Positions 4,118-59,045 of a stretch of 64,000 nt of DNA are shown here, one piece after another; positions within the stretch are counted from its first letter, which is position 1; each line of letters begins with the position of its first letter. The stretch covers positions 138,317,501 through 138,381,500 of the forward strand of contig CM059582.1 of assembly GCA_030407085.1 (NCBI GenBank). Reading direction: 5' to 3'. Under the pieces are notes generated by a model. That model was given only the letters and a program-made list of their open reading frames with translations. It was not told the DNA's origin and did not search any database. The translations under genes and the position numbers were made by a program. The DNA is from Trichopria drosophilae. Lineage: Eukaryota > Arthropoda > Insecta > Hymenoptera > Diapriidae.

Positions 4118-4328
4118 CACGGAAAAAAGTCCGCGCATATACAGTCAGGACAGCGTGTGCGCTGGTAATAGGGATCCCGCCTTTCCGTATCAACAATGGT
4201 GCACCGACCATGAGAGTACGGCGCTGTGAGCGCCACTGGAAAGAACGAACCCTCTCCATTTAAATACGAGGCTGAGTGAGCATCAGTTTTTTGAGTGCAC
4301 ACGGGCATCAAGATTCTCATTAGGGTTA
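4118..4328 (+). repeat. Outer left arm of fold-back element
   Basis: Near-identical inverted copy of 7440-7650. It includes a GC-rich stretch with a BamHI-like GGATCC and a 'TTTAAATACGAGGCTGAGTGAGC' type segment found in both arms. The arm is interrupted at a TA by the 4329-5927 insertion. Confidence 0.8.
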
Positions 4329-5927
4329 CCAGACGTATTCATTTATAACCGGACGCTCTAACTCTAAAACTATGAGCTTCTATAAGAAAATTATAATAAT
4401 GAGTTGTTTTGAAAAAGTAATTTATTTGATAATAGGTGTATGAGAATCTATCATCCGGCGTTGCTTAATACATAGTTCATAATCATATTGAATGCATCAA
4501 TTGTCCGGATCAGTGACATGTTGGATGAAATAATTTCACAGCAATTTTTTTTTGACGTTTCGATGACCATGTCCATTATTAGCAGAACTAAATAGTTTAT
4601 TAATTATGAATAAAAACATTAATTTAACAAAAATAATATTGTATGTAAAAAAAAATATAACACACCGTGTAAATACTTAATTAATAAGAAATTATTTCAT
4701 CCAACATGTCACTGATCCGGACAATCAATACATTCAACATGATTATGAAAATAAAAATAAGTAATTTATATGATATAAAATTAATTTTCGTTTAATATTT
4801 TTGTTTGTGTGAGTCTTATATCTATGAAATGTGACAAATGAAAAGAAAGGAGTTTTACGCAAAAATGCAAACTTTTCCACAAACGTAAAATTAAACATAT
4901 TCTTGAAAAAATTATGTTTTTTTTATACGGGTGAGCAAAATGTAGAGGATTTTTTTTTTAAATTATAATTTATTTATGAAAAATTCTGAAAATAATTTGG
5001 TGTATTCACTTATGAATTCTACGAGTTTTTTGTCCTTTGCAATTTTTGCCAAAAGTTGATAGTTCTTTGGGGGAAAAAATCCTAAACTATAATATTGGAA
5101 ATTCATTTCCTCGAAAACTATCAACTTTTCGAAAAAATTGCTAAGAACAAATAATTCTTACAATTCATCAGAGAATACACTAAATTTTTTTCAGAATTTT
5201 TTGTATATAAATTACAATTTTGAAAAAAATGTTGAAAAAAAATTTCTCAAAATATCATCAAAACATTTTGAAAAAATTCCACTATGTCGCTTGATGAATT
5301 TTAAGAACTTTTCATTCTAGGCATTTTTTTTTTAAAGTTCATAATTTTTGAGTTAGAGCGTCCACAAATTTCTCAAAGAAATGTTCATTGTTTACGCCAT
5401 TTTGAGGTCGTTAGAATGATGTAGAGTATAAAAGTAAAATTTTGTCTTAAAATTCAACTATTTTATGTACCATTATGCAAGGTTTAAACAAAATTCCAAT
5501 ATTCTAATAGCTCGAAAAAAATTGATAAGAATAAAAAATTCCCAATTTTTTGGAAATCTTTTAAATATTCGGCGCCATATTGGAATTTCTGATGGCTGAA
5601 ACTCAATTTTGACCTAGGAATCTTGAACAGCGACCTCGAAAATAGTAGGCTACGTACCTCTCAATTGTTTTAAAATTTGATTTTGATACGAAATACTTGT
5701 TTGAAAATGAAGTGTAAAAATTGTCATTTCAGGCGTTAATGGGTTAAACGGACAATCGATGCATTCAACATGATTATGAAATATGTATTAAGCAACGCCG
5801 GATGATAGATTCTCATACACCTATTATCAAATAAATTACTTTTTCAAAACAACTCATTCTTAGCATTTTCTTATAGAAGCTCATAAGTTTTAGAGTTGAG
5901 CGTCCGGTTATAAATGAATACGTCAGG
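4329..5927. mobile_element. 1.6-kb TA-flanked inverted-repeat element inserted in the left arm
   Basis: Its ends, CCAGACGTATTCATTTATAA and the inverse of TTATAAATGAATACGTCAGG, are imperfect inverted repeats that continue for about 200 bp (4329-4545 against 5745-5927). Flanking TA dinucleotides at 4327-4328 and 5928-5929 match a TA target duplication, as in Tc1/mariner-type elements. The uninterrupted right arm (7430-7445) shows the empty-site sequence. A further internal inverted copy of 4480-4545 sits at 4685-4750. The centre (4750-5745) is very AT-rich with no supported gene; a 60-codon frame at 5138 looks like chance. A diverged relative of 5100-5450 lies at 31070-31430. Confidence 0.75.
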
Positions 5928-5929
5928 TA

Positions 5930-6305
5930 TACGGAAAAACCTTTGGGAGCGCTGCTCACCCATGAACGGGGCGGGCAGCCCTCCCGCAGCACTTTTAATT
6001 TTTCAAATGATGATTAAAAATATAAGGGCGTAAAGATAAATTTTTTTTTTAATAGATATCGATTCATACTATTATTAAGGAAGTTTATGCGATATTTTTA
6101 GACTATCAAATTACTTATATGGTTTATAAAGATCGTTAAAAGCGTAAAAACCGGCACTTTTCCCATTTTAACGCTTCCGTATCAAAAACAGAGCAAAAAA
6201 AAATAAAATTGCACTAAAGCTTTTCTGTAGAGCGTGAAATTTTCTACAAAAAAGTCACGGGCAGCGATAGTGTAACATTAATAGTTTGGCCAGAAAGAAA
6301 ACACG
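5930..6305 (+). repeat. Inner left arm of fold-back element
   Basis: Inverted counterpart of 7072-7440, including 'GGGAGCGCTGCTCACCC' against the GAGCAGCGCTCCC segment of the right arm. The remaining 6306-6368 is the original loop, into which the retrozyme inserted. Confidence 0.75.
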
Positions 6306-6429
6306 AATTTAAACAGAATATTCCGAATATTTTACATTGGGTATCGATCAAACTGCAAGTTGACGTTCCAGTTGTGGCGACTGCCGTCGAACTCCTTTCT
6401 CGCAAGTGACTGCAGTAGCACAGCTTTCG

Positions 6430-6437
6430 TATATAAG
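6430..6437 (+). promoter_or_regulatory. TATA box in 5' LTR
   Basis: TATATAAG lies about 30 bp upstream of the start of the hammerhead (6462). Initiation 25-30 bp downstream would put the transcript start close to the first ribozyme nucleotide. The same box recurs in the 3' LTR at 6878-6885. The start site itself is inferred. Confidence 0.6.
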
Positions 6438-6461
6438 CCCGCAATTTCCACTCTTCCTCCG

Positions 6462-6534
6462 GATCGTATAAGGCAGGGCCCCACTATGTCGCCTTACTGA
6501 TGAGTCCAGTAGTGGGGACCGGGACGAAACGATC
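6462..6534 (+). ncRNA. Type III hammerhead ribozyme (5' LTR copy)
   Basis: All conserved core parts are present in order. Helix III is GATCGT (6462-6467) with ACGATC (6529-6534), 6 bp. The cleavage triplet GTA gives cutting after A6468. Helix I is TAAGGC (6469-6474) with GCCTTA (6491-6496), 6 bp, closed by a 16-nt loop. The core box CTGATGA is 6497-6503. Helix II is GTCC (6504-6507) with GGAC (6522-6525), and the core GAA plus A15.1 is 6526-6529. Loop I carries CCCCACTA (6479-6486), the exact complement of TAGTGGGG (6510-6517) in loop II, so an 8-bp loop-loop contact is possible. Helices I and II are closed and helix III is open, which defines type III. A GTA site is an accepted NUH triplet. 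No activity has been measured. Confidence 0.9.
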
Positions 6535-6619
6535 GACACAGTGGTCTGCATTATCCGCCACTGTCGGTATGGTAGATTTCCGCCATATCGGAAGGAGGTA
6601 ATGCTACCTTACCTCTTCA

Positions 6620-6638
6620 TTGGTGACCCTGGTAACCC
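6620..6638 (+). promoter_or_regulatory. Probable primer-binding site of the retrozyme
   Basis: TGGTGACCC follows the CA end of the 5' LTR after one base. Starting TGG, as complement of a tRNA 3' CCA end, and lying immediately after the LTR are the usual properties of an LTR-element primer site. The tRNA species was not identified. Confidence 0.5.
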
Positions 6639-6805
6639 AACTCCATTGCTTCCCTTACCGCATCTGTAGCTGCTCACACACGAGTCCAATTCCTCGTTCC
6701 GCTGGAGCCCTGAAAGGTTTGCTGTCAGCAATGAGTTGGGGTGAACTCGTTCCTTCTGAACTATCATTGTATCGTTCCGTCCTAGTCCTACGTCCTGCAA
6801 CGTCA

Positions 6806-6820
6806 CTGGAGGGGGAGTAT
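6806..6820 (+). promoter_or_regulatory. Polypurine tract of the retrozyme
   Basis: GGAGGGGGAG followed by TAT abuts the TG start of the 3' LTR. A purine tract here primes plus-strand DNA synthesis in LTR elements. Confidence 0.65.
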
Positions 6821-7067
6821 TGTGGCGACTGCCGTCGAACTCCTTTCTCGCAAGTGACTGCAGTAGCACAGCTTTCGTATATAAGCCCGCAATTTCCACT
6901 CTTCCTCCGGATCGTATAAGGCAGGGCCCCACTATGTCGCCTTACTGATGAGTCCAGTAGTGGGGACCGGGACGAAACGATCGACACAGTGGTCTGCATT
7001 ATCCGCCACTGTCGGTATGGTAGATTTCCGCCATACCGGAAGGAGGTAATGCTACCTTACCTCTTCA
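6821..7067 (+). repeat. 3' LTR of the retrozyme
   Basis: Second 247-bp LTR, offset 448 bp from the first, followed by the CAGT duplication. Transcripts starting in the 5' LTR would include this copy's ribozyme. Confidence 0.9.
6910..6982 (+). ncRNA. Type III hammerhead ribozyme (3' LTR copy)
   Basis: Identical in every base to the 5' copy; cleavage is predicted after A6916. Cutting at both ribozymes would release a 448-nt RNA (6469-6916) with the ends needed for ligation to a circle. Confidence 0.9.
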
Positions 7068-7071
7068 CAGT

Positions 7072-7650
7072 GTTATTTCTGGCTAAACTATTAATATTAG
7101 ACTAGGGCTGCCACTGACTTTTTTGTAGGAAATTTCACGCTCTGCAGAAAATCTTAGTGCAATTTTACTCTATTTTGCTCTGTTTTTGATACGTAAGGGT
7201 TAAAATGGAAAAAGTGCCGATTTTTACGCGTTTAACGATCTTTATAAACCATATAAGTAATTTGATGGTCTAAAAATAGTGCATAAACTTTCTTAATGAT
7301 TGTATGATTCCATATTTATTCAGAAAAAGATTTATTTTTACGCTCTTATATTTTTAATCATCATTTGAAAAGTTAAAAGTGCCGCGGGAGCGCTACCCGC
7401 CCGGTTTGGGTGAGCAGCGCTCCCAAAAGTTTTTCCGTGTAACCCTAATGAGAATCTTGATGCTCGTGTGCACTCAAAAAACTGATGCTCACTCAGCCTC
7501 GTATTTAAATGGAGAGGGTTCGTTCTTTCCAGTGGCGCTCACAGCGCCGTACTCTCATGGTCGGTGCACCATTGTTGATACGGAAAGGCGGGATCCCTAT
7601 TACCAGCGCACGCGCTGCCCTGACTGTATATGCGCGGACTTTTTTCCGTG
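7072..7650 (-). repeat. Right arm of fold-back element
   Basis: Uninterrupted arm that pairs with 5930-6305 and then with 4118-4328. It shows the empty site of the 4329-5927 insertion at about 7439-7442 and so proves that element came later. Confidence 0.8.
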
Positions 7651-11339: not shown

Positions 11340-11845
11340 TTTAAGACTTGAAAAACGTTTTGTGCCACGGCCGCTTCATACGATTTGGATTCCTGACATT
11401 GTTGGCAGCCTATATAGAAACTTCAAATATCTCCTGACCCCGCCGAGGTAGTAAAATGGGGAAAAGTTGCCTCAAATCTCTATAACAGCCGATTTCGAAA
11501 TTTTGATAGCAGAAAAACGTGTTGTGCCACGGCCGCTTCAAACGATTTGGATTCCTGACATTGTTGGCAGCCTATATAGAAATTTCAAATATCTGCTGAC
11601 CCCGCCGAGGTAGTAAAATGGGGAAAAGTTGCCCTAAATCTCTATAACAGCCGATTTCGAAATTTTCAGCCCTGAAAAACGTTTTGTACCACGGCCGCTG
11701 GGTATGATTTTAATTCCTGGCATTGTTGGCAGTCTACATAATAATTTCCAATATCCCCTGACCCCGCCGAGGTAGTAAAATGGGGAAAAGTTACCTCAAA
11801 TCACTACAACAGCCGATTTCGAAATTTTGAGAGCGGAAAAATACC
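11340..11845 (+). repeat. 162-bp tandem repeat, about three units
   Basis: The word CCACGGCCGCT recurs at 11365, 11527 and 11689, and ACCCCGCCGAGGTAGTAAAATGGGG-like blocks at 11437, 11599 and 11761, all exactly 162 bp apart. Units are roughly 85-95 percent alike by eye. This is a small satellite-like array. It touches the truncated end of an R4/Dong-like LINE at about 11850. Confidence 0.85.
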
Positions 11846-33660: not shown

Positions 33661-36189
33661 ATTATACTTATTATTTCGTTCGTCACAAACCATGGTGCGT
33701 TAACCAGCATCCTTAGTACTTTGGCCTGAATTCTTTCAAGGATTTCTATATTGCAGTTGGAGGCTGACCCCCATAATTGGACACCATGTCCAAATTGGTT
33801 TTAGGATGGATTTGTACAGCAAAATCTTATTTTCTAGAGATAATTTTGATTGACGGCCAATAAGCCAGTACATTTTTTGTAAGCGGTGACCTAGTTGTTT
33901 CCGTTTATTCCAGCTGTGGGTTTTCCACGTTAACCTACGGTCTAAGTGCATGCCCAGGTATTTTACTGACTCTGCTTGCGGTATTGTCTTTCCTTTAAAT
34001 TTTACTGGTGGACACGTTTCCCTACGTAGCGTAAAGGTTACGTGAGTTGACTTTGTTTCATTTACGTTTATCCTCCACTTTTGAAGCCAATCCTGTACCT
34101 TGTTTAAACTTGCTTGGAGATTATCAGATGCTGTGTTGGGGTTTGAATGCGAGGCCATAATTACTGTATCATCAGCGAATGTTGCCATTTGTGTTGATTT
34201 TGTTGTTGGAAGGTCTGCGGTATATATTAAATAGAGTAGTGGTCCTAAAATACTACCTTGCGGTACTCCGGAATTTATTGTATATAAGTTTGTACGTTCC
34301 TCTTGATATTTAACAAAGAAGTGTCTGTTACATAAATACGACTGCATTAGTAAGAATAATTTATGGGGAAGTTGTTTTTTGATTTTATACAGCAATCCCT
34401 TATGCCACACTTTATCAAATGCTTGCGCAATGTCTAGGAATACTGTCGAGCAGTATTTTTTGTCTTCAAAGTCTGTATTGATTTGTCTGGTCACTCTATG
34501 CACTTGTTCCACAGTACTATGGTGTTCTCGAAATCCAAACTGATGTTTTGGTATTACTTCTCTTTTCATTAAATCCGGTTTTATTCTACTTAGGAGTAGT
34601 TTTTCCAAGAGTTTTGCCAGTAACGGTAATAGACTAATGGGTCTGTATGATGTTATTAGTGAGAGGTCTTTGCCTGGTTTAGGCAAGAGAATAATTTCAG
34701 ATACTTTCCATAATAAAGGAAAGTAATTAAGCCTTATTACAGCATTATACAAAATAGTTAACAATCTCACTACTTTAACCGGTAACTCTTTTAGGATTTT
34801 TCCTGATATTAGGTCGTAACCTGGCGACTTTTTTGTGCTTAATTTACTTATTATGTTCTTGACTTCTTTTACAGTAAAATGTTTTAAGGGAGATTCTTAT
34901 TGTGGTGGTGCTATAAGGTAGTTGTTTATTTCGTTTTCATCTATAGATGTCATTTCGCTAGAAAAAGGTTCAAAGACTTTGCTCAGATGTTTTGCAAATG
35001 TTTCTGCTTTTTCCTTATTATTACGTATCCATTGTCCATTTTCAGTTTTGATTGGTGGGACAGCTCGTATTGGCTGCCTGATTCGTCTTGTTGCCTTCCA
35101 TAATGAATAATCTGTGTTTTCTGTTAGTGTCAATCCCATTAGATATTCTTGTATGGCTTGGTTTTTTTCCTCGTTTATTGCTTGTTTTAATTTTTTTATT
35201 GCCTTATTTAGTTTAGCTTTATCGTGGGGAGAGCGTGTAGATTGCCATTGTTTTCTCAACTTACGCTTCTCCATAATTTTCTTTTTGATGTTCCAGGAAC
35301 AATCTGCCTTTTTTTCATCCTTTTCAGCTTTTGTACGAGTTGATCTCCATGCTGCATTTTGTATTTCACTAGTGAGAATATCAATGGCGATTTCGACGTC
35401 TTCTTCTCTCTTGAGTGCGATATTACAGTTGACGCGTTCGTTTAATATTTGCTTAAACAAGGGCCAATTTGTGCTTGCATTACATAGATGAAGTGCTTTT
35501 GTTTTTTGTATTACTTTAGAGGATACTAATGCAATAAGTGGAGAGTGGTCAGATGTGAGGTCAAGACACGATTCTATTTGTACGTACTGTTTAGCAATGC
35601 CTTTTACGATGCAAAAGTCTATGACATCCGGTGTTTTTCTCCTATCCGTGGGCCAATAAGTAGGTTCCCCAGTTGATAATGGATATAAATTATTTTTCTG
35701 CATTGATAAGTATAGCTGCCTACCTTTGGGAGTAGGGATATGTGATCTAGAACCCCACCATGGGTGCTTAGCATTATAATCTCCACCTGCTATAAATCTA
35801 TGTCCAAGAGTCTTAAAAAATGTTGTATATTGTTCTTCTTTTATACTATGTTTAGGTGGAGAGTATATAGCAGCAAATGTGATTGGGCCATGCCAGTCAT
35901 TAACCGTTATGCTAGTTGCTTGCAAGTATTCCGTATTAAACTTATCATTTTCAGAATGTTTTATTGCACTTTTTATAATGATGGCAGTTCCGCCGTGTGC
36001 AGTTCCATCTGGATGTGGAGTATCGTAGATAGTGTAATTTGGAATCCTGAGATAACTTTTTCTAGTGAAATGCGTTTCCGATATAAACATTATATCTATA
36101 TTATGAACTAATAAAAATACTTTAAGTTCTTGGCTTCTTGTAACCAAGCCGTTAGCGTTCCAAACTGCAATTTTTAATAGAGACGCCAT
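33660..36189 (-). pseudogene. Jockey LINE ORF2 (endonuclease-reverse transcriptase)
   Basis: Starts ATG at 36189, overlapping the ORF1 stop. The APE endonuclease shows 'VWNANGL', 'ISETHF', 'GGDYNAKHPWWGS' and 'LTSDHSPL', all with catalytic residues intact. One TAA at 34897-34899 interrupts the frame before 'KKSPGYDLISGKIL'. RT keeps 'RPISLLPLLAKLLEKLL', 'FREHHSTVEQVHR', 'GVPQGSILGPLLY' and the catalytic 'FADDTVIMA'. A one-base shift near 33785 changes the frame, after which 'LERIQAKVLRMLVNAPW' type C-terminal sequence runs to the truncation at 33660. It needs only these two lesions explained, but the 3' end is absent. Confidence 0.85.
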
Positions 36190-36331
36190 TAGTTTAATTT
36201 AGTAATTAGAGCAGTTAATAAATTTAGTATAGTGTCCATTCTAAGAATTAATGTAGTCATCATTTCTTCAAGCTTACTTGTTTGTCCTTGTTGCTGTATT
36301 GGTGTAGTTACCTGTTGTTCTTGCTGCTTTA

Positions 36332-36364
<33 letters not shown>

Positions 36365-37421
36365 GGATATTCCCACACGTAATTTGTGCGTATGATATCC
36401 CTGGCTGTCTGAGATTTGATGTTGAATTTTGTCGTTCTTCAGTACGGTTTATCCGTTTTTCTCTTATTGCTGGAAATAGTTTTTGCAGCAGTTGCTTACG
36501 GACAATGCATCCTTTATAATTGGCAGGGTGAGCCCCTTCGCAGTTGCAACATTTTACTTCTTGACGTTTTTCTTTCCAGGAACAGTCATTGGTCAGGTGT
36601 ATTCCGGCACATTTCACACATCTAGGTGTTTTAAAGCAATAATTTTTTGTGTGTCCGAAACTTTGGCACTTCATACACTGCAGGATTTCTCTCTTTTTGT
36701 TGTAAGGTTGTTCAAAATGTATTACTGTATTTAGTAATCGTTTAATTTGGTAAATATCTTTGTTGTTTTCTTTCGGCTGTAACTCTACATAGAACATTGG
36801 TAGTGGGTGTTTTGTTTGAGGATGTAATATATTTGTTATTGAGTTGACATTATGTCCGTTATTTTTCAAATCTTCTTTTATTTCCTCTAAATCGGTTGAT
36901 GGGTGAATTCCTTTGAGCACAGCTCTGAAATTTCTGTCTTCCCTTTTTTGATAAGTATAACATTCGGTCTTCTTTTCTTTTAATGCTTGCATTATTGGTA
37001 AGTATTTATCAGTAGTGGTAAGTTGAATTTTGACTTGGTTGTCACTTATTATTTTTATTGTGTAATTTTCCGGTGCCATATTATCCAGTAGCTTTTTAAG
37101 TGGTGCTATATTTTCTACTCCATTTACAAATATAGGAGGTGATTTTATAGGTTTTAAGGCATTCGAAGTATTTTGCATGTCTTTATCCTCATTTATATTA
37201 CTTTCAGTTTCATTTTCGTATTGACTCAGTGCTGAAAAAGAGTTACTTGTTGGAACTGAATTATTTAGCCAATAGTTTGGAATCTTGGCCTGTCTTTTGG
37301 GATGTTTTTCGGTTGCGGTTGTTGGACTAGTCCTAATTCTCTTTTTCTTATTAGTATCATTCTGATTTTTCCACTCTCCCTCCTGCTCAGTGGAATTTAT
37401 ATTGCTGTTTGCCATTAACAT
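36189..37421 (-). CDS. Jockey LINE ORF1 (Gag-like, zinc knuckles)
   Basis: An open frame of 410 codons. The N-terminal third is polar; residues around 170-240 fit the PRE_C2HC region found before jockey knuckles ('FRAVLKGIHPSTDLEEIKED'). Three zinc knuckles follow: 'CMKCQSFGHTKNYC' near 245, 'CVKCAGIHLTNDC' near 264 and 'CCNCEGAHPANYKGC' near 286. An 11-Gln run lies near 353-363. Jockey ORF1 binds element RNA and forms particles. Its stop overlaps the ORF2 start as TAATG on the minus strand (36191-36187). Confidence 0.85.
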
Positions 37422-47200: not shown

Positions 47201-50200
47201 TTTTACCTTAAAAGTAAGTATGAAAACTATTCTCAACACTGTCTTAACATTTCAGGACCATTACTGCAATATGATGAACAGTTTCGGATTACTTTGTTCG
47301 GCCAAATTAAAAAAAAGGGGGGAATTAAAGTACGCTAGTGATGGGCCAAAGTAATCGATACTTTGGGTATCGATTGCATTCTGCCCATCACTAAAGTACG
47401 CCGGAGTCACGCTGTTTTAAAATTTTGTCCCTTCGGTATTTTGATTTTCGGAACTTAAAGGTCGAGCCCTTAAGAGGCCCATTGAAATGAAAAAACCTAC
47501 ATTAAACGGAGAGAACAGTGCAATAACTTACGTCACCGACTGTGACATCTCGTAGTCTATTATGAGTTGCGCAATTTTCGGCCGATATTTTGCAAAAATG
47601 TTGTCATCATTGAGTTTTACGTAATTATCATAAGCAGCGAATATCAATTCTCCTCTGTAGAAACTGTTTTTTATAATTTGGTACACCAAATTTTTTTCTC
47701 GCTCATTGGAAGTACCTTCAGTTAGGAATTAACCAAATAAAGAAAGTTTAATTAACAGAATGAATAAACACTAGTTTACATGACACAATACAGTAGAGGG
47801 TGAAAAAGCTACTTTTAACTTTCAACTCTAATTTTTAATTTAAAATCTTTTTCAATTCAAACTCAGTTTATGAGCTTAAAATCTCTGTGGAACATTGTTC
47901 GTAGAGATTACAAGAGGACTGAGCCATAGGCGTTCAATGAAACTACAGCCCTCCCCCTCTAATTGTCCACTAGGCGGGACCGAACTTCCCCTCACGGCTC
48001 TATAATTGTCCGCTTGCCTTTACCTCCCCTACTTCCCCTTCTCTTCACATTTATGTATGTATGTGTGTATGTATGAAACCCATGAAACCGGAGGCAGCGC
48101 ATGCGCACACATGTGTGTGTGTGTTTTCTTATAGTGAACCGGTGAAGTTGGTGGGGCAACTCTGACACCGCCATCTTGGCCAATTATAGAATCTTTCGCA
48201 GGGTCGATTACAGGGGAAGACAATTACATTGGAGACAATTAGAGAAGGATGAATGTACTGCAAATGGCTTTTTTACACCACCTGGTGGTATAAAAAAGCC
48301 ATTTTACAGTATGGACAAGAAAAGTTAACTTCAAAAATAAGCTTCATATGTTAAGTACACTTTACTCTTAATGAACAAAGTCTTATTTTTATTTTCAGAT
48401 CATTAGAATGAGTTATGTTGTGCAGGGCAATTACAAAGTAAATATTACAAAAAGACCATGACACTATACGTACAATAGTCAAAGTAGGATCTTAAGTTTG
48501 CGTATTAGCTGATGGAGTTATATTCTAAATAGGTGATAAAATAGTTCAATAATTTCAATATAACATCCAAATGGCCTTTTCACCCCATTCTACCCTAAAC
48601 ACAAAAATTTTTAGTATTATGTGAGATAATAAAACAAATGTACTTTGTGATCTCGACGGTTGTGCATGGTGACTGTGTACAGTTTGCAGTGGACTATTCT
48701 CAACATCGACAACCTCCAACTGCGATTTGGGAGGGAGTACGGCATTGTTGGAAGGTATATTACAGTGTGCAACAACGTTCGATAGTCCGCTGGCAATATC
48801 CAGCTTTTGTCTTTTTGAACCATTGGATGAAGAAGAAAAGTCGAATAATTCATGGCTTATGAGATGTGATACATCAGGATTGACATTCATATGTGGATGG
48901 TGAGGAATTACATGCTGGAGATTTTGAGGGTGCGATGAATACGGATGTTGAAACCCATTCTGATAATTTGGCACAACCATGTAATGAGGCGGAATGTTTA
49001 CTGAAAAATTAACGAAAAAATGATTTAAATGAAAAAGTAGTTATACAAAAGTAAAGAAAATAATTTTGATACAGTTTGTGGATCTTAACTGTCTCAGCCA
49101 GACATTTCTGTATGATTTTAAACTTAGGAAAAATACTGACACGAATATTAACAAATGGAATTTAAATTTAAACAAAACTCAAAGAAATCGAATTGGTAAT
49201 ATGAGTTGCCACAATGGCTGTATGGGTTAACATGGTCCTCCTCACAAATAACACATCTTGAAAAAGCATATTTATTAACATTAAATGAAAAATGATTATA
49301 TTGTTGGAATCACTGGTATTGTGGAAGAACGAATCATTTTTTTATGAGATTACCAAAAAACAGGTAAAAAATAACAAAAAATTGTATTTTGCGAGCAAAA
49401 AATTTAAAAGTTTATTTGAAAGAATAATGTCTTCACTTTCACCATACATATCGATGGGTCCTAACAGAATAACCGTATCTTTTACGTGACAATGGAAAAC
49501 GATGTATTTTTTGCGTTACGATAATAAACATCGCAACTAAAAATTTAACTGCTTTTGAATATTGAAGGTTACATGACTTTCAGGGTTAAGAATGAACTAC
49601 TAGATATCACGCCTAGAGGAAAAATATTTAATAACACTTCCAAGAATGTACATTATATTATTAATGATATTGTTGACGAGGCCAAATATCATTGTTGTTG
49701 AAAAAAATTGAAACATGCGAAAATAATTTGTTAAACAACTTTTGTTAAATGATCAAAATTTTCTGCTTGTCACCTTCATAAAAATTTTTAAAAATGAATG
49801 GATTCTAGTATATATTTGTATAAATTGAGATTTTTATATTAATTAATATAATACACTGTAAATTTGTTGGACTGAAACTCTTAATCCATATAGGACTGAA
49901 ACACATAACCAATCCCTTAGGACTGAAAATTAAGTCCTATGGATTTAATTGGTTCAGTCCAATACTTGGGATGCAGAAATTTCAGTCCAATGACTGGGGT
50001 GGTTTAACAACTCAGTCCAACTCGGGTGAAAATATATTCGATAAAGTGCGAATATATATAAATGAAATAAATCACACGAAGCCTAGTTATTGGAAAAGAA
50101 ATAATAGGCATTAAATGTATGTAAGTAAGAGTGTGTATTCAAATTTTGTTTTATTTTAAACAGTTAGTCAAAAAAACAAAATTTGAGGTTAACCGATCAA

Positions 50201-53200
50201 ATCTAAAACCAAAACAAAGTCTAGTCTTCGAGTAGGAATAAATATTAAAACAAAATGATGAAATATAAATTGCGGTATTTGGACAAAATCTGCTGAAGTT
50301 TGACAGAATCTGGTAAACAGACGTTTAAAAAATCTACACACCACTAGATATGCTTATAGACATAACCATAAAACAAATCGATTATTATTAATAAACACAT
50401 TAATAAACTGTAGTACTGTATATAATTATTCCAAATCATGCCGGATGAACACAAGTTTGACAAAATAACACATGTAAAGAAAGGTTAGGACACAGAAAGC
50501 TAAACAACCATGTTTGCATCTTTATACGCTGGAACTTATTAAATTTTGTTTGTTCGGTGATTCAGACAAAAATACAATTTTGGCTGAAATTTGAGATATG
50601 GATATGTTATTAACAAGATTTTAAACTCCCAGGTAGAAAATCGGTCGGGCAGAACTAGATTGGTTTAAATTAAACCAGTTCCTGGGCAGTCAATTTCAGG
50701 TAAAACTTTCCAGTAATTCATTTCTAGTTGTTGGACAGTAACCGGCAAGTTATACTATAATTTAATGCATACAAAAACTGCACAAAATCTAGCCGGTTAA
50801 ATCAGGCTAACGCAGGCCGAATAACTGCAACGAATGAATTAATTCTCATCTAAACCGAATTATGATTAAAGTACGAGGGCATACTTTTAAAAATAATCAT
50901 AAATTCTGTTACAACTTTACACCGAGTGTGAAGTTTTGAGGTTAACCTACTTCAAATGGATATGGTTTGATCTTACAGACTAGGAGAAATTTGTTTCAAA
51001 TTGATTGGTTGAAGTTATCGTATTGAAAACTTCAAAATAAAATAACAAGAATTTTAAGTACGACTCCGCTGTTTGCACATTTCTGCAAAAAGTGTCAATG
51101 TAAGTTGGTACTAACTATTCATCGTTAGGTTCTGTTTAAACAGATATTTTAAAACTACATGCGATGTAAAATATCACAAGTGAATCAATTGGATAATGAA
51201 ACTGTAAGTACGTTCCTTTCGCTTTAATAGGTATAGAAATTGTTTGGCTCCATGCTAAGGCCAAAAATGTAAATATTGCCATAAATTACTCCATAACCAT
51301 ACTTCTGAATACCTTTTGATCTTACAAACTAGGAGAAATTTGTTTCAAATTAATTGGTTGAAGTTATCGTATTGAAAACTTCAAAACAAAATAATAAGAA
51401 TTTTAAGTGCGAGTCCGCTGTTTGCACATTTCTGATATTTGACATCACATGTAGTTTTAAAATATCTGTTTAAAGAGAAGATAATGATAAATAGTTAGTA
51501 CTATCTATTATCATTAACTATTTATCATTAACTTCTGTTTAAACAGATATTTTAAAACTACATGTGATGTAAAATATCAGAAATGTGCAAACAGCGGACT
51601 CGTACTTAAAATTCTTATTATTTTGTTTCGAAGTTTTCAATACGATAACATCAACCAATTAATTTGAAACAAATTTTTCCTAGTTTGTAAGATCAAAAGG
51701 TATTCAGAAATATGGTTATGGACTAATTTAAGGCAATATTTACATTTTTGGCCTTAGCATCGAGGCAGACAATTTTTACCTGTTAAAGCGAAAGGTACAT
51801 ACTTACAGTTTCATAATGCAATTGATTCATTTGTGATATTTTACATCACATGTAGTTTTGAAATATCTGTTTAAACAGATGTTAATGATAAGTAGTTACC
51901 ACCAACTTACATTGACACTTTTTGCAGAAATGTGCAAACAGAGGTGTCGTGCTTAAAATTCTTATTATTTTGTTTTGAAGTTTTTAACATGATAACTTCA
52001 ACCGATTAATTTGAAACAAATTTCTTCTAGTTTGTGAAATCAAAACGTTTCCAGAAATATGGTTATGGACTAATTTAAGACAATATTTACATTATTGGCC
52101 TGAGCATGGAGCCAAACAATTTCTACCAATTAAAGCGAAAGGAACGTACTTACAGTTTCATTATCCAATTGATTCATTTGTGATATTTTACTTCACTTGT
52201 AGTTTTAAAATATCTGTTTAAACAGAACTTAATGGTGAATAGTTAGTACCAACTTACATTGACACTTTTTGCAGAAATATGTAAACAGCGGAGTCGTGCT
52301 TAAAATTATTGAACTGTACGGGTCGAGAATCTAGCTAGAGCAGTTGTCAAAATATGTAGTCTTATAAAACTAGACTGGTACTAGCTATTAACTGCACAGT
52401 ATCATATATCGGAGCACTAGACGAATTTTGTATCCCATGACTGCCAGGAAACTGGCCAGTTTCGCTGGCTAGCGCCCGATTATTGTCAATTTCACCAGCG
52501 TTTTGTATAAACTTTTTCACTACCTTAAAAGCAACTGTTTGACATAAAACTACTTGGAATAGTTTCAGAAGAGCAAAATCTATCAAGTTTCATGGTTATA
52601 TTTTAATTTTTAGCATAATTTCCATATTTATCTGATTTAAACAAACCTGATAAAAAACAGTTGCTTGGTATACAATGATGCTGAAAATTCTAATATAACC
52701 ATTAAGCTTGGTAGATTTTGCTCTTCTGAAACTATTCCAAGTAGTTTTATGTCAAACAGTTGCTTTTAAGGTAGTGCAAAAGATAATACAACGCGTCTAC
52801 TAAAAGTGACATATAACCAATTTATAAGCCGTCAAATTTTTAGTTACGATGTTTCCAATCGTAACGCTAAAGATACGGGTATTCTGTTAGGATCCATCGA
52901 TATGAAATACATTCTTTTTAAATATTTGAAAATCTTTTCGATGTGGCATTGAAGAGTCTTATTCTCGTTAATACAAACAGTCATAAAAATATACTAGTTT
53001 CCCACCAATTTCATAAACCATGACAAAGCAAAATATATAGTATTACATAGAAGTTAAAAAGAAAAGTTAAATTTGAAGAAAAATATCATCTTAATTTGAA
53101 GATGCTATGTGACTAAATGTACTGTTAAAAGTCACTATATATTATATAGTTGCCAACGTAAATTAAATTAATCTGTAATTAAACACAAAAACTTGTGTCT

Positions 53201-55249: not shown

Positions 55250-58120
55250 TTAGGCGAGCAGACATTCCCCAATGCCCTCAGGTGTTAGTGGTCCTCCTAC
55301 CGAGATCCAGAACTGTTCCCGTTCCGCTGCAAATCTCGGGCAGTGGAAGAGGACATGGGCCACGTCTTCGTCGACACCAGGGCATGCCGGGCACTCCGCA
55401 CTTTGATAAATGCGGAAACGATGTAAGTAGCTGCGAAAGCAGCCGTGCCCGGTGAGCACCTGGGTGAGATGAAAGGTGGTGTATCCGTGTTGTCTGCCCG
55501 TCCACTTTGCTACATCTGGGATGACGCAGTGGGTCCACCGCCCCGAATCCGCTGAATCCCATCTTTTTGCCACTCTTCTATGGTCCTCATGGACCATTTG
55601 TCGTGGTTCGGCTCCTGGTCGGCGATGTCCTGCCTTATACACCTGCCTTCGCGGTGTACTGCTGCCCTCTCCATAGCAAGAAGGTCTATGGGAGGGAGTC
55701 CCGCGACCACCGAGAGAGCGATGTCCGATACAGAACGGTAGGCACGGGCCACTCTTAGGGCGGCTGTTCTATAAGCCCGCCGGCAGGTGGCTCCGTAGCT
55801 CTTATGGATGTTCATGGCATCAGCCCATATCGGTGCCCCGTAAAGAATAACGGAGCTTACTACCGATGAAAGCAGGGACCGTCGCGGCTGTTTCGGCCCC
55901 CCCCCCCCATATTGGGCATGATGCTAGAGAGCGTACGAGCCACTTTGAAAGCCTTTACGCCTGCGTTCATCAGGTGTTGTTTGAACGACAGCCGCGCATC
56001 TAGAGTGACTCCAAGATATCTAAAAGTGTCCACCGTCCTGATCTGCGTATCTTCCACCGTGAAGGTGGCGTATACCCTTTTCTTCGTTCGAGAGATGAGC
56101 ACCGCCTCCGTCTTCTCAGCCGCCAGATCTAACCCATGGTTGCTCAACCACCTAGCTACTACCTCGATAGCTTCATCTCCGCTAAATTGCACCTCGTCGA
56201 TGGTCTTCGAGACGACGATTAGTGCAAGGTCGTCTGCGAAAGCTACCATGGACACCCCGTATGGGAGGGGTTGCCTGAGCAGTCCGTCATATAAGACGTT
56301 CCAGAGCAAGGGTCCCAGAACCGAACCTTGTGGCACGCCTCCCGTGATGTTGTAGGAGTGCCTGCCGTCATCGGTGTCATAATACAGGGTTCGTTCTGTT
56401 AGGTAGCTTGAGATGGCTTCTCTTAGGTAGAGAGGCACCTTCAGATTTTCGAGTGCCTGCATGATGCAATCCCACCTGGCCGAATTGAATGCGTTCCGGA
56501 TATCCAGGGCAATGATGCCACACATGCACCTGGTGTTTCGGCTGCCACTGATGGCATCCGTGGCTATTGCTTTCACTCGGCCGATTGCATCGATGGTTGA
56601 GCGCCCCTTTCTAAATCCGAACTGGTTTTCGGAAAGACCTCCGGCATTTTCGATGGCTGCTTCCAGTCTGGCACAGATAACCCTCTCATATAGCTTCCCG
56701 GAGATGTCAAGCATGCAGAGCGGTCGGAATGAGGATGGGTCGTCCGGGGGTTTGTTTCCCTTAGACCGCAGCACCAACCTCTGTTCCTTCCACTGCGCCG
56801 GGAAGCATCCTTCCTTCAGGCAAGCAATGAATGTCAATGTGAAGATGGTTGGTACATTCAGCGCTGCGATCTTCACTGCCATTTCAGGTACCCCATCCAT
56901 TCCTGGGGCCTTACGGGTGGAGATCTTCTTAGCAGCCATCATTACTTCGGCTTCGGTAACATCTGGCGGCTCGGCTGCACCAGCAATTGCCATCAGGCCA
57001 GTGCCAATCGGCCGTTCCCGCTGTTCTGGGAATAAATGTCCGACGACTTTGCCAAGGAAGGATGGACAAGATGGTGCGTTGGGTCCCCTGGGCTTGATCT
57101 TGTTCATGACCGTTTTATACGGTCGCCCCCAGGGATCGCGGTCCACCTCCTCACAAAAGTCCTGCCAGCACTTTCTTTTCGCGGCTTTGATGGCAATCTT
57201 GAGCCTCTTTCTCTTTCTTTCATAGTCCGCGGCCAGTTGGTAGTACCGGGGCTTATGGATTGCTCTCTGGTGCAGCCTTCGTGCCCGAAGGCACTCTCGA
57301 CGGATATCTGCGATTTCCTCGTTCCACCAGTAAACTGGGGGTCGGCCGCGAGGATTTGACTTCACGGCCATAGAGGCATCGCAAGCCGCTGTTATCGCTC
57401 GGGAGAGGCATCGGGCTCTCTCCTCTGCTGTTCCCTCCACCTCCGTCTGTTCCAAGCTGTAGAGGAACATTTCCCGATCGAAGGTGGCCGGTGCCCATCT
57501 CTCTTTGCTTGCGCTCTGCACCTTTCCTACTGCTCTGCCGGTCAGTTGGAGCTGGTACACCAAGGCTTGATGGTCACTGCCCGTGTATCGGTCGCTAACT
57601 TTCCAGCCCAACCCTTCCCCCATCAATTTTGGGTCGACGAAGGTCAAGTCGACTACGGAGGACTTGCCGGCCTTGGAGTAGGTCGGCTTTCCCCCCGTGT
57701 TAGCAATCTCCAACTCCAGTAACGAGAAGGCTTCAATGAGGGCATATCCTCGATGGTTGGTCTTCGCGCTACCCCATTCCGTCGCTCATGCATTGAAGCC
57801 CCCCCCCCCCCCCCCCCCGATCACTAATGGGAGTCGGGAGGTTCTTACACTGGCGACGATGGCCTCCAGGGATCCTTAGAACTTATACCAGCCACCTCCA
57901 CCCACGTGAAGCTGGGCAGGGGATCGGACATCTTATTGGATATGTGGAGATTCCCACACACCCAGATGGCCGCCCTGCTGGTGGAATCCTTCACCCAGCT
58001 CGGTTTACAAAGGTCCCGGTAAGCCTCGCTGATGACGGCGATATCGGCCTTCTCCTCCTTGACCAGTTAAAACATCAGGTCCTGGGCCACCGCACAGTGA
58101 TTGAGGTTTATTTGGAGCAC
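55250..58120 (-). pseudogene. R1-type LINE ORF2 (endonuclease, RT, zinc finger)
   Basis: The endonuclease start ('LQINLNHCAVAQDLM', 'ISEAYRDL') is near 58110-58000, with a stop and deletions after it. At 57799-57820 a 22-base C run (G on the coding strand) replaces the codons for the catalytic 'GGDFNAW' motif. From 57713 to 55860 a 617-codon frame holds the endonuclease end ('VSDRYTGSDHQALVYQL') and RT ('RPLCMLDISGKLYERVICA', 'FGFRKGRSTIDAI', 'GGVPQGSVLGPLLWNV', 'FADDLALIV' near residue 486). A 12-base C run at 55897-55908 shifts the frame. The C-terminal region follows in two frames and ends with the finger 'CPACPGVDEDVAHVLFHCP'. Confidence 0.8.
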
Positions 58121-59045
58121 CGACGGGAAGCAAGATATTGGCCGCCTGGGTTCCGCTATATGCTCCCCTGAGCTTGATATTCTCAGGGGTCACTGCTTCC
58201 GGTGAAGTCATCTCAATGATGGCCTGTGCCACCTCCTCCCGAGTTGTGGCCTCGTCCATGTCCTTGACGGTGATAGCTTCCTTATGGGACAGTGCCTGTA
58301 CGACAGCTGTCCCTTTTAGGATGGACGTCGCCGCTGCTTGGAGCTCTTGGGTGCACACGCCAGGCGTTGCAAGCTCTATGAGCAGTTCGCCTGCTTTCGT
58401 CCGCCTGATGGCGGTCACCCTTTCTCCTAACTTTTGCAGTTCTGGCGCAGCTTTCATGGTCTTCAGGATGTTGACATATGACGCACCGTCCGCTGCCTTG
58501 ATCTTGATGGCATCGGGGCGGAAGGGTCGGAGGCCGGCTTTTGATTCCGGCTCCCCCCTGTGTCGCTTGCCGACATCCGTTCCCTGCTGCTGCTGATGTT
58601 GTTGCTGCTGCTGCTGCCGTTGTTGCTGTCGTTCCTCCTGCGGATGTTGTTGCTGCTGATGCTGTTGCGGTTGTTGTTGCTGCAGCTGCTTCGCCTTCTT
58701 CTTTAGGCCGTTTCTGACCACCGTAAGCCAGTCCTGGTCATCCGACTGGGGTTGCCGCCGTTGTTCTGCAGCTGGTGGTACGGGGCGTTCCTCTTTATCC
58801 GCTTCTTTCCTGACCCGTTTTGTCGCTGGCAGCTTCAGCGGCGAGGGTCCTTTACGCTCCGGACGTTCGGGGGGCTTACGGAATAGGGGCGACGTTTGGC
58901 TCGCCCCGTCCTGGCAGGTGACCGACGCCTGCGAAGCCCCCGAACTTTCTCGTGCCTTGGCGTAATGGCTAAAGGCACGCAATGTGCCTCTGGCCATATT
59001 CTTGAGCTCCCTGTGGAGATTTTTCTTTTCCTGAATAAATTCCAC
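58005..59045 (-). pseudogene. R1-type LINE ORF1
   Basis: An open frame of 346 codons. The N-terminal half is basic, with a Gln/His-rich tract ('QQQQPQQHQQQQ') near residues 120-150. The C-terminal half has the conserved fold segment of R1-type ORF1 ('ASYVNILKTMKAAPELQKLG', 'VTAIRRTKAGELLIEL', 'IKLRGAYSGTQAANILLPVG'). The zinc knuckles expected next are missing: the frame runs straight into out-of-frame ORF2 sequence ('NKPQSLCGG') and stops. A deletion of several hundred bases therefore fused ORF1 to the ORF2 start. Confidence 0.75.

Follow-up and report, generated by a model that had tools for sequence, protein, structure and literature searches.

Background

LTR retrozymes have been described from plants, whereas the metazoan ones are non-LTR elements with type I hammerheads (PMC7761336, PMC7229834, PMC11722881), and an earlier, sequence-only reading of the locus treated here also drew the line between LTR retrozymes of plants and small non-LTR ones of animals, the latter linked to Penelope-like retroelements. 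As described by Cervera, Urbina and de la Pena (2016, PMC4918200), the plant elements are non-coding and non-autonomous, with 4-bp target-site duplications (TSD), a polypurine tract (PPT) and a primer-binding site complementary to tRNA-Met; their LTRs, about 330-350 bp long, carry type III hammerheads in which stem I typically has 6 bp, stem II has 4 bp and the short loops are joined by non-Watson-Crick contacts, and the monomer of about 600-1000 nt is predicted to be a self-paired circle. The metazoan non-LTR retrozymes, according to Cervera and de la Pena (2020, PMC7229834), are bounded by tandem type I hammerheads that delimit a small RNA of 170-400 nt; they are described without LTRs, primer-binding site (PBS) or PPT, any TSDs being longer than 4 bp.

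Type III hammerheads with loop-loop base pairing, known as pseudoknotted forms, are reported from fly and termite genomes and from delta-like RNAs in PMC7936874, the fly examples being drawn from work in preparation and the termite ones being isolated motifs for which that source describes no LTR element. In its toad and termite RNAs helix I is extended (a 5-bp stem, an internal loop and an extra hairpin) and stem II has 6 bp, and its search of hymenopterans, hemipterans and a cockroach is reported to have given no pseudoknotted type III hammerheads. Insects bearing type III hammerheads have also been mentioned, as work in preparation, as a possible source of the plant retrozymes (PMC7761336). 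As for anatomy, miniature non-coding LTR elements are represented among ant TRIMs by PbTRIM (PMC3532108) and Helenus/Ajax (PMC10886601). PbTRIM and some Helenus have hymenopteran hosts; PbTRIM has a tRNA-Leu primer site, LTRs of 152-184 bp and a 4-bp TSD, and no ribozyme is mentioned for any of these elements in the accessible text of the two sources.

Here, I describe a miniature LTR retrotransposon of 695 bp, delimited by repeat comparison and BLAST at positions 6373-7067 of the window (the whole 64-kb stretch of DNA that was analysed), a very young, non-autonomous element that very probably operates as a retrozyme in its insect host. The LTR-retrozyme interpretation had been put forward in the sequence-only reading, and it is supported by the anatomy of the element and by the type III hammerhead that each LTR contains. 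With the plant retrozymes the element shares a non-coding, non-autonomous build, a 4-bp TSD, a PPT, type III hammerheads in its LTRs with 6 bp in stem I and 4 bp in stem II, and a predicted self-paired circle; it differs from them in its shorter LTRs (247 bp), its shorter predicted monomer (448 nt), a tRNA-Trp-like primer start, long loops able to pair over 8 bp, and its insect host. Apparently having no tRNA-Met PBS, it is kept apart from the published plant set and may be regarded as a modified version of that plan. An animal host and a small ribozyme-bounded RNA are what it has in common with the metazoan non-LTR retrozymes, from which its type III topology and LTR anatomy set it apart. The pseudoknotted hammerheads resemble it in topology, in loop-loop base pairing and in their occurrence in insect genomes; PbTRIM resembles it in its 4-bp TSD, and differs in its shorter LTRs and in the hammerheads found here.

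Type III hammerheads in insects are already known; what seems to be new is that an insect TRIM carries one in each of its LTRs. In the open-licence retrozyme literature, judged by titles and the beginnings of abstracts and with preprints lying outside it, no animal LTR retrozyme was found, nor were animal elements with a hammerhead in each LTR found in the literature consulted, PMC3088659, PMC11721086 and PMC12029980 included, as far as the accessible text of these sources goes.

Anatomy and age of the element

The structural features are the following.

6369..6372, no strand: left target-site duplication CAGT (sequence)
6373..6619, + strand: 5' LTR, TG...CA, 247 bp, 246/247 identical to the 3' LTR
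6430..6437, + strand: TATA-like box TATATAAG (sequence; putative promoter)
6621..6629, + strand: primer-binding-site-like TGGTGACCC, at the expected PBS place after the 5' LTR (sequence)
6808..6817, + strand: polypurine tract GGAGGGGGAG, separated from the 3' LTR by 3 nt (sequence)
6821..7067, + strand: 3' LTR, TG...CA, 247 bp (repeat comparison, BLAST)
7068..7071, no strand: right target-site duplication CAGT (sequence)

The LTRs start 448 bp apart in direct orientation, and their sole mismatch is a T/C difference at LTR position 216; being nearly identical, they indicate a recent insertion. Between them lies an internal region of 201 bp (6620-6820), which starts with TTGGTGACCC, ends with GGAGGGGGAGTAT and is closed at its 3' side by the purine tract followed by TAT. 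Thus the two repeats with one mismatch, the exact CAGT duplication and the purine tract that the earlier reading had claimed were all recovered. Its statement that the element has no ORF holds in essence: the three longest ORFs called mechanically measure 99, 107 and 114 aa, and a Pfam search up to E = 1 matched none of them. Carrying no recognisable protein, the 695-bp element is, as far as its sequence tells, non-autonomous.

The primer-site-like motif matches the 3' end of animal tRNA-Trp over 9 nt only, and it presumably differs from the plant tRNA-Met type. The TATA-like box recurs in the 3' LTR (6878-6885); its 5' copy lies 32 nt upstream of the first hammerhead base, so that transcription would be expected to start at about 6455-6465, adjoining the first ribozyme base at 6462.

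BLAST found no second copy of the LTR or of the internal region in the 64-kb window, nor did a search there for an autonomous partner sharing the element's ends find one. When one mismatch was allowed, TTGGTGACCC occurred at 3 further places in the window and TGTGGCGAC at 7, none of which, judged by eye, resembles an LTR end.

Hammerheads of type III topology in the two LTRs

Two hammerheads were located by descriptor scans.

6462..6534, + strand: type III hammerhead of the 5' LTR, predicted cleavage after A6468 (descriptor scans; RF00008 15.6 bits, below cut-off)
6910..6982, + strand: type III hammerhead of the 3' LTR, predicted cleavage after A6916 (descriptor scans; RF00008 below cut-off)

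Each LTR reads GAUCGU-A/UAAGGC-16 nt-GCCUUA-CUGAUGA-GUCC-14 nt-GGAC-GAA-ACGAUC, with the predicted cut at the slash. In the 5' copy, stem III (6462-6467/6529-6534) and stem I (6469-6474/6491-6496) have 6 bp each and stem II (6504-6507/6522-6525) has 4 bp; the core boxes CUGAUGA (6497-6503) and GAAA (6526-6529) are intact, and the cleavage triplet is GUA. All 16 stem pairs are Watson-Crick, which bears out the full core with three paired helices per LTR that had been claimed beforehand, and the two LTRs do not differ in the core, the three stems or the loop-loop pairing described below, all of which are intact. Judged by its pairing potential, the topology in each LTR is that of a complete type III hammerhead. 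The difference in stem length, six minus four, comes to two here, a value to be set beside Perreault et al.

The covariance-model check proposed in the sequence-only reading went the other way. Rfam makes no call at its gathering threshold; among weak matches, Hammerhead_3 (RF00008) is listed at 15.6 bits and E = 3, against a gathering score of 48.5. The alignment matches the core and leaves out the 16- and 14-nt loops, and the low score is read here as a consequence of loops that are unusually long. By score the candidate is not a member of Hammerhead_3, and what is claimed for it is a type III topology with an intact core. Since the model skips the loops, the Rfam negative was supplemented with a descriptor and a random-sequence null.

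The descriptor, with minimum stems of 4/4/5 bp, was applied to both strands of the window and matched twice on the + strand and nowhere on the - strand; on 33.6 Mb of random sequence it gave 0 matches. A larger null comprised 7.14 Gb of Markov sequence that reproduced the dinucleotide composition of the window (714000 stretches of 10 kb, one strand, GAAA required). In it, 47 stretches contained a match when the minimum stems were 4/4/5, and 3 did so when they were 6/4/6, which gives a chance expectation per 64-kb window, both strands counted, of about 8e-4 and 5e-5, respectively. On this measure the candidate core in both LTRs is far above chance.

Loop pairing and competing folds

The loops left out by the Rfam model contain two complementary strands.

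6479..6486, + strand: loop 1 strand CCCCACUA, 8 bp with 6510-6517
6510..6517, + strand: loop 2 strand UAGUGGGG, 8 bp with 6479-6486

The complement is perfect over 8 bp, a length reached by only 166 of 100000 loop shuffles (0.17%). Loops 1 and 2 can therefore pair, a type of contact known from other hammerheads. When the ribozyme segment is folded alone, its minimum-free-energy (MFE) structure is not the hammerhead: the preferred plain fold, at -27.6 kcal/mol, is one long hairpin built from both loop strands, versus -15.5 kcal/mol for the nested hammerhead without loop-loop pairing. In stability this fold does not stand out from those of shuffled sequences (z = -0.82; 42/200 equally stable). 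The loop duplex would add about -14.4 kcal/mol to the hammerhead, a pseudoknot penalty not yet being counted, so that the hairpin and the pseudoknotted hammerhead states may be close.

These folds bear on the possibility that the element is an ordinary animal TRIM, which moves by linear-RNA strand transfer and carries in its LTR a captured hammerhead that is inactive or unused. Ant TRIMs of like size are known, at 480-781 bp and with a 4-bp TSD (PMC3532108), and both the non-hammerhead MFE fold and the low Rfam score agree with such a view. It is nonetheless considered unlikely: the core, stems and loop pairing are intact in both LTRs (although the LTRs of a new insertion are identical anyway), and active ribozymes in both LTRs would remove the R ends needed for strand transfer. 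Less probable again, and by a wide measure, is a chance resemblance, in which LTR sequence that is no ribozyme happens to fit the descriptor; the missing Rfam call would suit it, yet 7.14 Gb of random sequence held only 3 stretches of equal quality and few loop shuffles matched the pairing. A working hammerhead in the LTRs is thus the preferred reading in what follows.

The predicted circular RNA

Cleavage at both predicted sites would delimit a monomer, downstream of whose first ribozyme the LTR forms further structure.

6469..6916, + strand: predicted 448-nt monomer between the cleavage sites, a putative circular RNA (circular fold)
6535..6619, + strand: series of three stable hairpins in the part of the LTR that follows the ribozyme (z = -4.03; 0/200 shuffles as stable)

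The 448 nt are made up of 151 nt of the 5' LTR, the 201 nt of the internal region and 96 nt of the 3' LTR, and closing the predicted monomer would regenerate a single complete LTR. Its circular fold has a computed energy of -152.2 kcal/mol, compared with -131.2 +/- 6.0 kcal/mol in shuffled sequences (z = -3.5; 0/200 as stable). In this circular fold 7 bp of the competing hairpin between the loop strands recur; plant retrozyme circles are likewise predicted with the ribozyme in a blocked form (PMC4918200; PMC7229834). The hairpins occupy the 85 nt that follow the ribozyme, and the lone difference between the LTRs lies in one of them, where the pair is kept as G-U versus G-C.

Genomic setting

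The element is inserted in another transposon.

5930..7439, no strand: palindromic MITE hosting the insertion, arms 88% alike, with a TA duplication at 5928-5929 / 7440-7441

The MITE has TACGGAAAAAC-like ends and measures about 811 bp without the LTR element; a copy of its own target, free of the insertion, is found at 4288-4355 on the other strand. In the window, 31 reading frames reach 130 codons or more, 8 of which were scanned against Pfam; 5 of the 8 gave matches, all of them to transposon kinds. At the left end of the window lies a gypsy-like element with protease, reverse transcriptase and integrase (Pfam). Long open frames mark an R1-like LINE at 55860-59045 and a jockey-like one at 33736-37421, both on the - strand.

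Three LINE proteins were searched for relatives, the best 120 matches being considered out of 252, 2657 and 2399, respectively. Named relatives among the best 120 of 252 are Lasius, Lutzomyia, Colias and Tuta, with Lasius niger as the top-ranked named match; among the best 120 of 2657 they are Euphydryas, Neodiprion, Bactrocera and Trichogramma, the R1 proteins having their closest matches at 65-72% identity and named insects at 44-47%. The best 120 of 2399 include Mythimna, Graphocephala, Trichogramma, Eumeta, Leptosia, Lasius, Heliothis and Photinus, as well as a Menopon record flagged as contamination and one bacterial-symbiont MAG; here Lasius niger has the highest identity among the named matches (65% over 81% of the query), several others ranking above it. 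Apart from that MAG, the named relatives of the neighbouring transposons searched belong to insects of several orders, and the host is most likely an insect.

It follows that a plant retrozyme present through contamination or a very recent plant transfer, named beforehand as what would overturn the retrozyme interpretation, is the least probable of the alternatives and is rejected as very unlikely: type III hammerhead LTR retrozymes are indeed described from plants (PMC4918200; PMC11722881), where stem lengths of 6 and 4 bp are typical (PMC7936874), yet the element is nested in a MITE whose arms match and which has its own TA duplication, the transposon proteins searched on the contig have insect relatives by name (best 120 each), the loops of 16 and 14 nt contrast with the usual 6-8 and 4 nt of type III (PMC7936874), and the primer start described above is presumably not of the plant type.

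Some further features of the window may be mentioned. A frame of 141 codons at 48555-48980 on the - strand, rich in His, Pro and Ser, gave no Pfam match and resembles a coding exon of the host more than a transposon sequence. Tandem arrays occupy 51578-52307 (347 bp x 2.1) and 11350-11841 (162 bp x 3.0), both 88% matched.

A proposed mechanism

If the element works like a retrozyme, its life cycle may be modelled on that of the plant retrozymes, whose plan it follows (PMC4918200). The LTR promoter would start transcription near the first ribozyme base, the hammerheads of both LTRs would cut the transcript and release a 448-nt RNA, and a host ligase or the ribozyme would close this monomer into a circle. 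The circle, bearing one complete LTR, could then be the template for a tRNA-primed reverse transcription, for which tRNA-Trp is the best guess, by a reverse transcriptase borrowed from an autonomous element, probably of the Ty3/gypsy type; a Gypsy element primed by tRNA-Trp has been reported from an insect (PMC10886601). Because the circle carries one complete LTR, a reverse transcriptase passing the circle junction could yield an LTR-internal-LTR cDNA, which a borrowed integrase would insert with a 4-bp duplication.

Along the same line, the element may represent an independent animal LTR-retrozyme lineage, in which a pseudoknotted type III hammerhead of insects was captured in the LTR of a TRIM primed by tRNA-Trp and dependent on Ty3/gypsy, a proposal to which I give equal weight for and against. 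Were it true, the same circular-RNA strategy would have evolved twice.

An insect LTR retrozyme would break the division between plant retrozymes with LTRs and type III hammerheads and animal ones without LTRs and with type I hammerheads, and would make it a testable question whether circular RNA templates made by ribozymes evolved repeatedly in LTR elements or crossed kingdoms. It further points to a place in the genome where the type III hammerheads of insects and delta-like RNAs could reside, and an insertion this recent hints at enough activity for the system to be studied in the living insect.

Search for relatives in viral and prokaryotic collections

The collections searched for relatives were viral or prokaryotic, which makes the lack of relatives in them a weak test. 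An exact scan of viral contigs with the primer-site piece gave 0 stretches and one with the LTR start gave 4; the latter were taken as chance, their longest matches to the element being 17-19 bp. In prokaryotic genome contigs, 0 occurrences of the hammerhead-plus-LTR pattern were found. At 15 viral loci with hammerhead boxes, the pieces shared with the element came only from the hammerhead region and did not exceed 37 bp, apart from one 18-bp LTR piece (L007).

The same 15 loci served as a control of the descriptor, with stem III relaxed to 4 bp. Two were accepted, L001 and L006, whose loops are short and complementary over 2 bp, which says that the descriptor is strict; as the other 13 loci are unclassified, the control does not gauge sensitivity.

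Repeated matches to the hammerhead boxes (CTGANGA...CGAAA), at a single locus and on one strand, were seen in the viral contigs L001, L009, L011, L012 and L013. Their spacing ranges from about 330 to 1140 bp; they are candidates by boxes alone, some of which may be due to chance. Four such sites lie in L009, and in L013 the boxes are on the + strand at about 11248 and 11703.
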